A DNA stretch of 64,000 bases from a virus: positions 1 through 64,000 of the IMG/VR virus record IMGVR_UViG_3300037193_000639. One strand, given 5' to 3'. Shown one piece after another: positions 10,927 to 13,842 of the stretch; position 1 is the first letter of the stretch, and every line of letters begins with the position of its first letter. Position numbers and translations under genes: made by a program. The notes under the pieces were generated by a model. It made no database searches. It saw nothing but the letters and a program-made list of their open reading frames with translations, and was not told the DNA's origin.

Positions 10927-11016
10927 AGAGGATTGGCTGAGTGGCTGATAGCAGCGGATTGCTAATCCGCAGGGTCTGTAAAGGCTCCATAGGTTCGAAT
11001 CCTATATCCTCTGCCA
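10927..11016 (+). tRNA. tRNA-Ser (GCU)
   Basis: A 7-bp acceptor AGAGGAT/ATCCTCT, anticodon arm GCGGA-TTGCTAA-TCCGC (anticodon GCU), long variable arm and T arm with GGTTCGAATCC are all present. Discriminator G is followed by an encoded CCA. Confidence 0.9.
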
Positions 11017-11020
11017 AGAC

Positions 11021-11155
11021 ACTTGATGGTAGACTTAGGGCCATAAGGAATACAGTGGAAGGTTGTTTGGTGATGCGGGTTCGAGCCCCGTCTTAGAGCA
11101 GGATAGCCACCATAGATACTAGTTACTAGAAGCTGTATTTGCTGCCATCAAATGT
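11021..11155 (+). ncRNA. Structured region with a tRNA-like T arm, not a standard tRNA
   Basis: The ends pair: TTGATGGTAG (11023-11032) with CTGCCATCAA (11142-11151), 10 bp with one G.U, enclosing 109 nt. Inside lies a T-arm-like hairpin GCGGG-TTCGAGC-CCCGT, but no matching acceptor or anticodon arm in the usual geometry. It may be a decayed or rearranged tRNA, or a separate small RNA in the tRNA cluster. Confidence 0.4.
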
Positions 11156-11172: not shown

Positions 11173-11270
11173 GGAAGCGCCATCCGATTGGCGACGGAGC
11201 CGGTCTTGAAAACCGTGTGAGTTATGCTAACGCATAGCCTTGGGAGTTCGACTCTACCCCGCTTCCTCCA
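11173..11270 (+). tRNA. tRNA-Ser (UGA)
   Basis: Acceptor GGAAGCG/CGCTTCC is perfect with an encoded CCA. The anticodon loop CTTGAAA gives UGA, and a long variable arm TATGC-taac-GCATA marks a class II tRNA. One T-stem mismatch and one mismatch at the top of the anticodon stem are present. Confidence 0.85.
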
Positions 11271-11349
11271 AAGATTTTGTGGAGAGGACTTCCGGTTTGG
11301 GAGGTCAAAGTGCATTTGCAAGGTAGCGTGGCAGTGTACAAGCATTTAG

Positions 11350-11383
11350 AACCCTTCTTGGTGAGAGCCTTGAAGGGTTTTTG
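11350..11383 (+). terminator. Rho-independent terminator after the tRNA cluster
   Basis: AACCCTTC (11350-11357) pairs with GAAGGGTT (11372-11379), with a further internal GG/CC, and is followed by a T run (11378-11382). Confidence 0.75.
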
Positions 11384-11394
11384 TGTTGGAGTGG

Positions 11395-11487
11395 TTTTAA
11401 AGAGGCGTCCTTGGTAGGCATCAACCCTCCAAAATACTGAGGCCGACCTCTTTAAAATTATTTCAACAACAACCTTGGAGGGTTGAT
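11395..11487 (+). ncRNA. Interleaved inverted repeats: candidate H-type pseudoknot
   Basis: Stem A is TTTTAAAGAGG (11395-11405) with CCTCTTTAAAA (11447-11457), 11 bp perfect. Stem B is ATCAACCCTCCAA (11420-11432) with TTGGAGGGTTGAT (11475-11487), 13 bp perfect. The order A-B-A'-B' with linkers of 14, 14 and 17 nt is that of an H-type pseudoknot, or of two alternative hairpins. A 7-codon frame (11491-11514) and the endonuclease gene follow. Confidence 0.6.
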
Positions 11488-11523
11488 ATTATGCAACAAC
11501 TGAATCTGTTTTAGAGGCAAAAA

Positions 11524-12096
11524 GTGTGTGATGTTGGTATAAGTCCGGTTAGGCACAAAATTTATGAGGACGGGAAGAGAACACGAGGCTACTCTGTGTG
11601 GCACAGTATGTTAAATAGGGCCTATAACTTGAAACGGACTGCGGGTAAGAAGGCTTATGAAGGCGTCGCCGTTTGCGATGAGTGGTTGTCAGGGGATGTG
11701 TTTATTGATTGGTGTGAGAAACAAGTTGGATTTTCTGACCCATTGTTTCAACTTGACAAAGATATCTTAGTGAAATGGAATAAGATTTACTCACCAAAGA
11801 CATGCGTGTTTGTACCTCGTGAGATTAACTTAGCAATTACTAGAAGTGACTCTAGCAGGGGTGAATTTCCTATAGGTGTTTCTTGGAGTCATAAATCGGA
11901 AAAGTTTGGGGCCTATTTAAGTGAGTTTGGTAAACTTAGATACCTCGGAATGTTTCCAACACCAGAGGAAGCTTTCTACACATATAAGTCAGCTAAAGAG
12001 AAGTATTTAAAAGTTCTTGCTGACAAATATAAAGATGTCATAGACCGCAGATGTTATGAAGCTCTTTGTGCGTATCAGGTGGAGATAACGGATTAA
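11524..12096 (+). CDS. Free-standing homing endonuclease beside the split TerL gene
   Basis: The 190-residue protein starts with GTG after AGAGGCA. It has the signature GYSVWHSMLNRAYN...YEGVAVCDEWLS...F...W of the phage AP2/HNH-like endonuclease group, and an AP2-like half (FPIGVSWSHKSEKFGAYLSEFGKLRYLGMFPTPEEAFYTY). It ends 2 nt before TerL. The group I intron in TerL has no ORF of its own, so this enzyme is a candidate for mobilising that intron. Family by eye; target inferred. Confidence 0.7.
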   Translation: MCDVGISPVRHKIYEDGKRTRGYSVWHSMLNRAYNLKRTAGKKAYEGVAVCDEWLSGDVFIDWCEKQVGFSDPLFQLDKDILVKWNKIYSPKTCVFVPREINLAITRSDSSRGEFPIGVSWSHKSEKFGAYLSEFGKLRYLGMFPTPEEAFYTYKSAKEKYLKVLADKYKDVIDRRCYEALCAYQVEITD

Positions 12097-12098
12097 AT

Positions 12099-13842
12099 AT
12101 GAGCAAACGAATTTACGGCCCCTGTAGTGAACGTCAACGTCTATTTCTAATGGACACAACAACAGACGTAATTTTGCTTGGTGGTAAACAATCTGCCTCC
12201 AAGGGTAAAAAACAACTCTCTAATTGCTGGAAAATCTCGATGAGACAATCAGCAGCGAAGGTTCTCAATGATGAGAACAACGTTCAACGACTAGCCGAAA
12301 GGCGTACACCTAAGCGGGTGGAAACGGGAGTCTCCTTGACAGGATGAAGATATAGTCTGAACTGCATGGCGACATGCAGCAGCTTTGCAAAAGCGGGGTA
12401 GTAGTAGCGATACTACCTGAACATATTTGGGCGCTGGAGGAGGCAAATCATTCACCTGTCTTACAAAAAACCTAGACGGCTTAGACGATCCATATTTCCG
12501 CTGCACTATCTTTCGTCGCACATACCCAGAGCTTAAACGTCAGGGTGGTTTGATTGACGAAAGCAAGCAAGTATACAGAGATTTTGGTGGTGTCTACAAA
12601 TCACAGGCAATGAAGTGGATTTTCCCAAGTGGCGCAGAAGTTTCGTTTTCTGCTATCTCTTGTGACGATGATCTAGGCTCTTGGCAAGGCTCACAGTTGG
12701 TTCGTGCACTAGTGGACGAAGCTGCAGATAAGTGGACAGAGAAGCAGGTTTTGTTTCTGTTGTCTCGTTTGCGGTCAGCACATTCTAAAATTCATCCTCA
12801 ACTAATTTTGACATGTAACCCAGACATTAATTCGTTCTTGAAGTCTTGGGTGGATTTCTGTTTAGATCCAGACACAGGGGTTCCTGTCGAGGGGACAGAA
12901 AATCGGGTTAGGTGGTTCATTGTTATTGACAATAAGGCACACTGGGCTGATTCCCCTGAAGAGGTGTTTGAGAAGTATGGTAAGCCGCGCAACATGATTT
13001 ATGCACACGGGCTTACTGAGGAAGAAATGAATAGTTACTCTCCTCAAGAACGCCTCCGCTTGTGCATGCCTAAGTCTTTCCGGTTTCTGCCTACCGGAGT
13101 GTTTGACAATCCTTACCTGCTCCCGCCAAGGAACAATAGCTATCTGCCAAACTTGCTGGCACAGCCGTATGTCAACCAGCTTAAGTACCTCCATGGATCA
13201 TGGACGGCTAAGGAAGCTGCAGGAGGCTACTTCAAACGTGAATGGACTCCTATCGTAGATTATCCTCCTGAGAATCCTATCTCCCGTGTTCGCTCTTGGG
13301 ACTTTGCAGCCTCTGAAGAAAGCGTTGCCAATCCCAACCCTGACTGGACTGCAGGGGTGAAGATGTCACGGGATAAGTATGGAATCTATTACATTGAACA
13401 CGTCGAACGCTTCCGTGCAAGAACTGACAAGGTATTGAAAGAGGTTATTGACGTAGCTAAGTCGGATGGTTTGGACGAATGTGGTGTGACCATCCCTAAA
13501 GACCCCGGTGCAGCAGGAGCTACAGCAAATGCCTTCTATATTAGGACGCTTGCAGAAGCAGGGGTAGCAGCTAAATCATGTACGATTTCTGGGCACAGTG
13601 GCAAGGTAACACGTTTCAAGCCATTTGCTGCATTAGCAGAGAGCGGTTCTGTTAGGGTGGTTAGAGGTGATTGGAATGATGCTTTCTTTAATGAGCTAGA
13701 AGAATTCGATGGCTCAAGGGGTAAGAAGGACGACCAGGTGGATGCTGTGTCGGATGCTTTTGCTACTTTGGCAAGACAGTTGCAGATGCCGACGATTGTG
13801 ATCCCTTCTCTGGAACAACCCTCCCCAATTCCAACAGTTTAA
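12099..13842 (+). CDS. terL: Large terminase subunit, split by a group I intron
   Basis: The protein is encoded by exon 1 at 12099-12185 (29 codons, ending ILLGG) and exon 2 at 12430-13842 (470 codons, beginning GAGGGKSF). Splicing restores the Walker A motif GGGAGGGKS in a 499-residue protein. Walker B is ALVDEA. The RNase H-like nuclease half has acidic residues in RSWDFAASEE and DDQVDAVSDA. TerL is the ATP-driven packaging motor and headful/cohesive-end nuclease. The ATG at 12099 follows GGTGGAG. The unspliced transcript would stop in the intron, so intron removal is required for packaging. Confidence 0.9.
12186..12429 (+). ncRNA. Group I self-splicing intron in terL, 244 nt
   Basis: The 5' exon end CTTGGTGGT pairs with the internal guide GCCTCCAAG (12195-12203) over 9 positions with one U.U, and the exon's last U faces G12195, the diagnostic U.G of P1. 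Core elements follow in order: P near 12221 (AATTGCTGG), Q (12246-12260), R (GTTCAACGACTA, 12282-12293) and S (AAGATATAGTCT, 12347-12358). R and S pair as P7 (GACTA/TAGTC). P9-type hairpins close with GCGA tetraloops (12362-12379 and 12401-12416). The 3' end is G12429. P6 is the palindrome GTTCTCA-ATGA-TGAGAAC. No ORF lies inside. Confidence 0.88.
12261..12278. repeat. Dispersed palindrome, copy 4, inside the intron
   Basis: GTTCTCA-ATGA-TGAGAAC, 7 bp, lies exactly between intron elements Q and R, where P6 is expected. Confidence 0.75.

Follow-up and report, generated by a model that had tools for sequence, protein, structure and literature searches.

The interleaved inverted repeats at 11395–11487 of the window (the whole 64,000-nucleotide stretch of viral DNA that was analysed) are read here, with a probability of about 0.72, as the leader of an inserted homing endonuclease gene (HEG) cassette, in which a loop–SD pseudoknot blocks the Shine–Dalgarno (SD) sequence of the HEG and keeps its translation low. 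HEGs are abundant in phages, and in the literature searched the restraint of free-standing HEGs has been worked out mainly for T4-like phages, in which simple hairpins mask the ribosome-binding site (RBS). At the present site the protein that would be controlled is less well conserved than the RNA fold, and at least two RNA classes precede unrelated HEG families.

The element and its surroundings in the window

The two perfect repeats (A, 11 bp; B, 13 bp) follow one another in the order A-B-A′-B′, with linkers of 14, 14 and 17 nt between the arms, exactly as the preliminary description had placed them. The context given there (terminator-like hairpin with T-run, tRNA-Ser, 7-codon frame, HEG and terL) was also recovered. 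The features are as follows.

10927–11016: tRNA-Ser, upstream of the terminator-like hairpin
11350–11384, + strand: intrinsic-terminator-like hairpin AACCCTTC/GAAGGGTT (11350–11379) with T-run; left border of the insertion, conserved among relatives
11395–11405, + strand: A arm, 5′ strand, TTTTAAAGAGG; perfect repeat, covariation
11406–11416, + strand: inner extension of stem A, 5′ strand, CGTCCTTGGTA; pairs with 11435–11445 with one mismatch, covariation
11420–11432, + strand: B arm, ATCAACCCTCCAA, apical-loop anti-SD of hairpin A; perfect repeat, covariation, permutation test
11435–11445, + strand: inner extension of stem A, 3′ strand, TACTGAGGCCG; pairing with 11406–11416, covariation
11447–11457, + strand: A′ arm, CCTCTTTAAAA; perfect repeat, covariation
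11458–11474, + strand: linker L3, TTATTTCAACAACAACC, A/C/U-rich in sequence
11470–11485, + strand: local SD hairpin C, CAACCT-TGGA-GGGTTG, an alternative fold (−6.3 kcal/mol for the isolated stretch)
11475–11487, + strand: B′ arm, TTGGAGGGTTGAT, including the SD GGAGGG; perfect repeat, covariation
11491–11514, + strand: 7-codon frame MQQLNLF* (ATG 11491 to TAG 11512), in frame with the HEG start 33 nt on
11524–12096, + strand: HNH/AP2-type HEG, 190 aa, GTG 11524 (PHROG 953, E = 3.7e-64; tblastn relatives)
12099–13842, + strand: terL (large terminase) with a group I intron inside (Rfam match at 12135–12379)

Stem A extends to about 21 bp through the pairing of 11406–11416 with 11435–11445 beyond the mismatch, and B lies inside its apical loop. 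B′ holds the SD region and ends 3 nt 5′ of ATG 11491. Both strands of the 64 kb were searched for hairpins with a loop complementary to a downstream SD; this one site was returned, with a score of 32. As the entire 64 kb, shuffled 20 times with its dinucleotides preserved, gave 0 matches scoring 20 or more, the earlier judgement that the arrangement is very unlikely by chance is borne out.

The window HEG lacks the N-terminal zinc-ribbon-like domain that the L001 and L026 HEGs have. The 7-codon frame reads as the remnant start of this N-terminally truncated HEG, interrupted by TAG, and GTG 11524, with its own SD (AGAGG, 11513–11517) overlapping that TAG, is likely to be the re-start. Recoding of the in-frame TAG was considered and is not suggested: TAG ends three of the 36 long ORFs and TAA or TGA the rest, so that truncation with reinitiation at GTG 11524 fits better. 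Because of the truncation and the in-frame TAG, the present function of the window leader may be decaying.

Two further observations concern the tRNA region upstream. The stretch 11173–11266 is tRNA-like with a TGA anticodon and is probably a tRNA-Ser; it scores 40.8 bits with the tRNA-Sec model, below the cut-off, and is missed by ARAGORN. A T-arm-like stretch at about 11076–11093 lies outside any called tRNA.

Class I leaders in relatives

Relatives were gathered from IMG/VR with TerL as bait, and their DNA was searched by architecture rather than by sequence. Leaders in which the loop B of a long hairpin A pairs with an SD-bearing B′ were termed class I; this fold was found directly upstream of terL in the window and in L001, L003, L015, L016, L017 (identical to L019), L020, L026, L047, L065, L078 and L096. 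All leader-bearing members belong to one clade of environmental phages.

The 12 class I elements were aligned with MAFFT without use of structure (alignment A3). Standard pairs occupy 88% of the pair cells, and 20 of the 32 pairs show double-sided changes (15/22 in helix A, 5/10 in helix B). The covariation score was 0.516, against 0.256 for shuffled and 0.12–0.16 for slid alignments. For B with its own B′ the mean pairing energy was −16.6 kcal/mol, which 0 of 100 000 permutations reached, compared with −8.9 kcal/mol for swapped partners. The SD lies in B′ in all 12, and the start codon follows B′ by 1–8 nt. A covariance model built on the nested part of class I (R2) found exactly one copy in each of nine out of 39 whole phage records, only at the pre-terL site. 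The preliminary description had called the repeats a candidate H-type pseudoknot and had named compensatory change in an alignment as a check; the interleaved order together with compensatory change in both helices, and the single copy per phage at this one site, uphold that call.

The degree to which the two helices coexist was considered separately. L3 measures 3–17 nt among the class I members, depending on how far A is drawn, against 18–30 bp for helix A; since L3 is short for this length in several members, the base of A is likely to fray, or B to pair in part. Complete and simultaneous formation of the A and B helices is a property of the model. L3-like linkers (..TTATTAAC..) occur in further elements of class I and also of class II, described next.

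A second RNA class at the same site

HEG-bearing relatives that lack class I (L059, L080, L081, L082, L083, L085, L101, L104, L107 and L109) carry instead a three-way junction in which the loop of P3 pairs with the loop of an SD hairpin (class II). It consists of P1 (GTGGC/GCCAC or a variant), P2, which has a palindromic loop, and P3, the whole 6–7 nt loop of which is complementary to a 3′ segment overlapping the SD. A small SD hairpin has this segment as its own loop, for example ACTC[GTGTAG]GAGT or ACCT[AATCAG]AGGT, and the pair is therefore of the kissing-loop type. The P3 and SD-hairpin loops occur as nine different sequences with 100% complementarity, compared with 63% when swapped (0/100 000 permutations). 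P1 is short, the helices have 5–7 bp and the linker 12–15 nt.

An additional element, in L102, was found by a model without the pseudoknot (R1); its loop CCACTT pairs with AAGTGG and a NUMOD4-HNH HEG follows. The weak R1 matches in L144 and L145 were unsupported on inspection. A scan with the class II core pattern gave 78 stretches, among them some of the class II elements already known and six new ones of two kinds (L182/L195 and L190/L191/L225/L227), situated before HEGs; class I was absent from these 78 stretches. A HEG follows each of the 13 distinct class II elements; these HEGs are of the T5orf172/MUG113, NUMOD4-HNH and other types. In the folding models, the principle common to both classes is that an upstream hairpin uses its loop to lock the SD.

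In each of the class II elements read, a palindrome of 4 nt lies in the P2 loop (GATC, AGCT or GGCC, for example L085 1379–1392; TGCA in L102), which could permit dimerization of the RNA.

Downstream genes and insertion history

A HEG follows the leader directly and reaches to terL in 11 of the 12 class I loci. It is of the HNH/AP2 type (PHROG 953, 374) in the window, L001, L026, L015, L016, L017, L078 and L096, and a DUF723/DUF4379 zinc-finger protein with a C-terminus matching the PHROG 681 endonuclease in L020, L047 and L065. The leader is thus kept while the type of HEG changes. The exception is L003, where the class I leader is followed by a frame of 8 codons that overlaps the start of terL, and the HEG is absent.

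In HEG-free relatives the terminator is followed, after a short spacer, by terL, which has an SD of its own; neither leader class is present. Empty and occupied sites could be compared directly. L062 and L060 are empty (...TTTTTGTTGTT..AGGGAATACATATGACAG), while L059 has the class II RNA and a HEG between the same borders; L071 is empty (...CACATTGGAGGTCGAATG), and in L017 the class I A stem starts directly after CACATTG. From these comparisons, leader and HEG form one insert. In L053–L055 a class II leader survives in its 5′ portion, with no HEG; these stubs look like deletion scars, and L003 is probably their class I counterpart. Of the earlier proposal of a mobile-element relic, the mobile part stands, the element being inserted with the HEG; 'relic' does not suit what is otherwise a live part and would describe L003 and L053–L055 only.

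The leader of L026 (3642–3749) is near-identical to that of L015 (4807–4899), while the terL branch and the N-terminal domain of the HEG differ, which suggests horizontal transfer of the leader–HEG cassette with domain swapping under the leader.

Within terL, the group I intron of the window was identified with Rfam RF00028 (12135–12379, 89.6 bits). The terL intron is present in seven class I loci with HNH-type HEGs (window, L001, L015, L016, L017, L026 and L078) and falls below the cut-off in L020, L047 and L065 (PHROG 681-type HEGs) and in L096 (HNH-type HEG; short contig). The association of intron and HNH-type HEG suggests collaborative homing. The terL of L003 (4945–7395) contains a group I intron and, immediately behind the Walker A region (GAGGGK.., continuing as an 816-aa frame), an intein-like insertion. 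The element itself was also considered as a fragment of a group I or HEG-bearing intron and this was rejected, as Rfam gave no signal over it; the real group I intron sits in terL.

Proposed function and alternatives

Repression of HEG translation in cis by the leader is the most likely role in the model. Hairpin A (or P3 in class II) would fold first during transcription, and its anti-SD loop B would then capture the SD (B′) of the HEG start as this emerges. The resulting H-type loop–SD pseudoknot, or kissing loop, would bar access of the 30S subunit, and the HEG would be translated only sparingly, from transcripts that have run past the upstream terminator. The HEG rather than the terminase is taken to be the controlled gene because HEG-free relatives lack the leader and unrelated HEGs follow it. 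Against this reading, the SD is also held by the weak local hairpin C.

Each of the 22 leaders tested, among them every class I member tested, folds a counterpart of hairpin C, and this bears on a two-state switch, in which hairpins A and C would alternate with helix B–B′ under the selection of a signal such as a protein, temperature or transcription speed. L3 is short relative to A in several members and the nested-only folds are already very stable, both of which agree with such a switch. In class II, however, the short P1 and the 12–15 nt linker let loop and SD pair without geometric conflict, and no conserved sensor core was seen in class I. We regard the switch as possible but rather unlikely.

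A temporal switch like those of T4 I-TevI, segB and mobE is somewhat more doubtful. Here a promoter inside the leader would produce late transcripts that start within A and escape the lock. The same logic is documented for T4 HEGs (PMC2988022), a promoter of its own would make sense for a gene just behind a terminator, and the outer A arms of several members start with −10-like, A/T-rich sequences (TTTTAA/TATTTA/TATTAT). A transcript starting 7 nt past such a −10 would nevertheless keep both B and B′, so that the SD could remain paired; moreover, the −10 likeness was judged by eye, and a −35 match was not identified.

It is improbable that the leader regulates terL with the HEG as a mere passenger. 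Such regulation would suit L003, where the leader stands ahead of a tiny terL-overlapping frame with no HEG and may for this reason act on terL, and the overlap of the HEG stop with the terL start in several relatives makes coupled translation possible. On the other side, the terL of HEG-free relatives has its own SD and no leader, and the empty-site pairs indicate that the leader arrives with the HEG. The preliminary description had proposed a transcription or translation switch for terminase: its translational side is retained, B′ being the SD, but terminase as the primary target was rejected since HEG-free relatives carry terL without the element.

Near-perfect duplexes as long as A (18–30 bp) are plausible substrates of RNase III, and the long A duplex might therefore be the functional part, serving in processing or in protection of an mRNA end. 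This would leave the independent conservation of B–B′ unexplained, and class II keeps the loop–SD pairing although its helices have just 5–7 bp; we consider it a poor candidate, and nothing was found that favours the nuclease-resistant RNA end raised earlier in particular. Chance repeats, or a DNA-level target of homing or recombination that plays no part as RNA, would fit the clustering of HEGs and repeats at the locus but are highly improbable given the covariation, the use of one strand throughout, the SD always at the end and the 0 shuffle matches.

Beyond cis repression of the HEG, the two architectures that occupy one slot before unrelated HEGs, enter with them and sometimes outlast them might constitute a transferable RNA collar of selfish genes, to which we give an even chance. 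If so, the loop–SD lock would be general, and mobile endonucleases of different origin would restrain themselves beside an essential packaging gene. Two questions can be put to the test at this site: whether a regulatory leader already in place is taken over by invading HEGs (module swapping), and whether restraint of a HEG beside an essential gene is selected. Loop–SD pseudoknots and kissing loops could serve as compact translational locks.

Comparison with known systems

The closest parallels are the T-even HEGs I-TevI, I-TevII, I-TevIII and segB and the Aeh1 mobE, which are restrained by RNA hairpins sequestering the RBS; these hairpins are simple, and a late promoter is placed such that late transcripts escape them (PMC2988022). 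As here, the RNA ahead of a phage HEG pairs with its SD, the HEG lies near an essential gene and some of the HEGs are free-standing. The HEG start just downstream and the SD inside the structure are found in 11/12 class I and 13/13 class II elements. The SD is not, however, enclosed in a simple local hairpin: its main partner is the apical loop of an upstream hairpin (C being weak), in a pseudoknot or kissing loop of two architectures, and at this single site unrelated HEGs share the fold.

The T4/T2 gene 32 pseudoknot sits 67 nt before the start and nucleates the binding of gp32 across the RBS; according to a review, it is possibly the sole viral example in translational autoregulation (PMC3014915). 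It shares with the present leaders a pseudoknot in a phage mRNA leader tied to translational repression, which in our case is inferred. It belongs to a different gene, has much shorter stems and does not itself pair with the SD, whereas B′ contains the SD and the present pseudoknot is thus not separate from the RBS. The preQ1-type riboswitches use the SD as the paired 3′ strand of an H-type pseudoknot (PMC10622847), as seen here; class I differs in its far longer stem A and in lacking a conserved ligand-binding core and an Rfam match. In ICP1 a T5orf172 HEG lies beside an intron-bearing terL in a case of collaborative homing (PMC10448857). The adjacency of HEG and intron-carrying terL and the T5orf172 and HNH types are common to both, and that account describes no leader RNA.

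Database and literature searches

Rfam 15 at the gathering score gave no family over the leaders of the window and 30 related loci; low-threshold scans gave miRNA-type matches only (E 0.08), which were rejected as chance hairpin matches. The leader models found nothing in one ICP1 genome and one Barbavirus genome, and only weak matches (E 0.05–0.09) in 11 named phages whose HEGs or terminases are related. None of 50,697 phage records showed DNA similarity to the one leader compared with them. A general HEG leader across phages was rejected on the weak model matches and the empty similarity search. The pattern CCCTCCTCAGG..GGTGTGC occurred in 13 stretches, and the fold only in two already known. 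L075 and L077 passed the first filter and were discarded, the long hairpin in each resembling a terminator with a chance SD match.

A full-text search for HEGs with pseudoknots or kissing loops, covering open-licence papers, where absence is no proof, turned up no account of a leader like this one. The literature combining HEG, pseudoknot and ribosome-binding site came down to a T4 review, and the pseudoknot treated there belongs to gene 32. Phage HEGs with RBS-sequestering hairpins, and HEGs beside an intron-bearing terL, are already known; the pseudoknot or kissing form and an RNA slot common to unrelated HEGs are unusual here, and no description of them was found.

Other RNA-like elements nearby

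A second conserved RNA-like element lies between the tRNAs and terL (window 11277–11341, L002 112–173, L082 73–133), with counterparts in L010, L001, L079, L047, L053, L011, L068, L008, L020 and L078; HEG-bearing and HEG-free relatives both have it. It comprises GTGGAGAgg followed by hairpin 1 and by hairpin 2, whose core is GCA.GG..AG.GTGGC. When 14 sequences were folded together with RNAalifold, 14 pairs resulted, 12 of them with compensatory changes, and Rfam gave no match to the element, a candidate for a new ncRNA close to the packaging genes. The same intergenic region of L006, L009, L015 (4327), L016, L001 (4554), L075 (1150) and L077 (3791) also contains long hairpins whose loops are CTCCT-rich and anti-SD-like, in some relatives shortly 5′ of terL.
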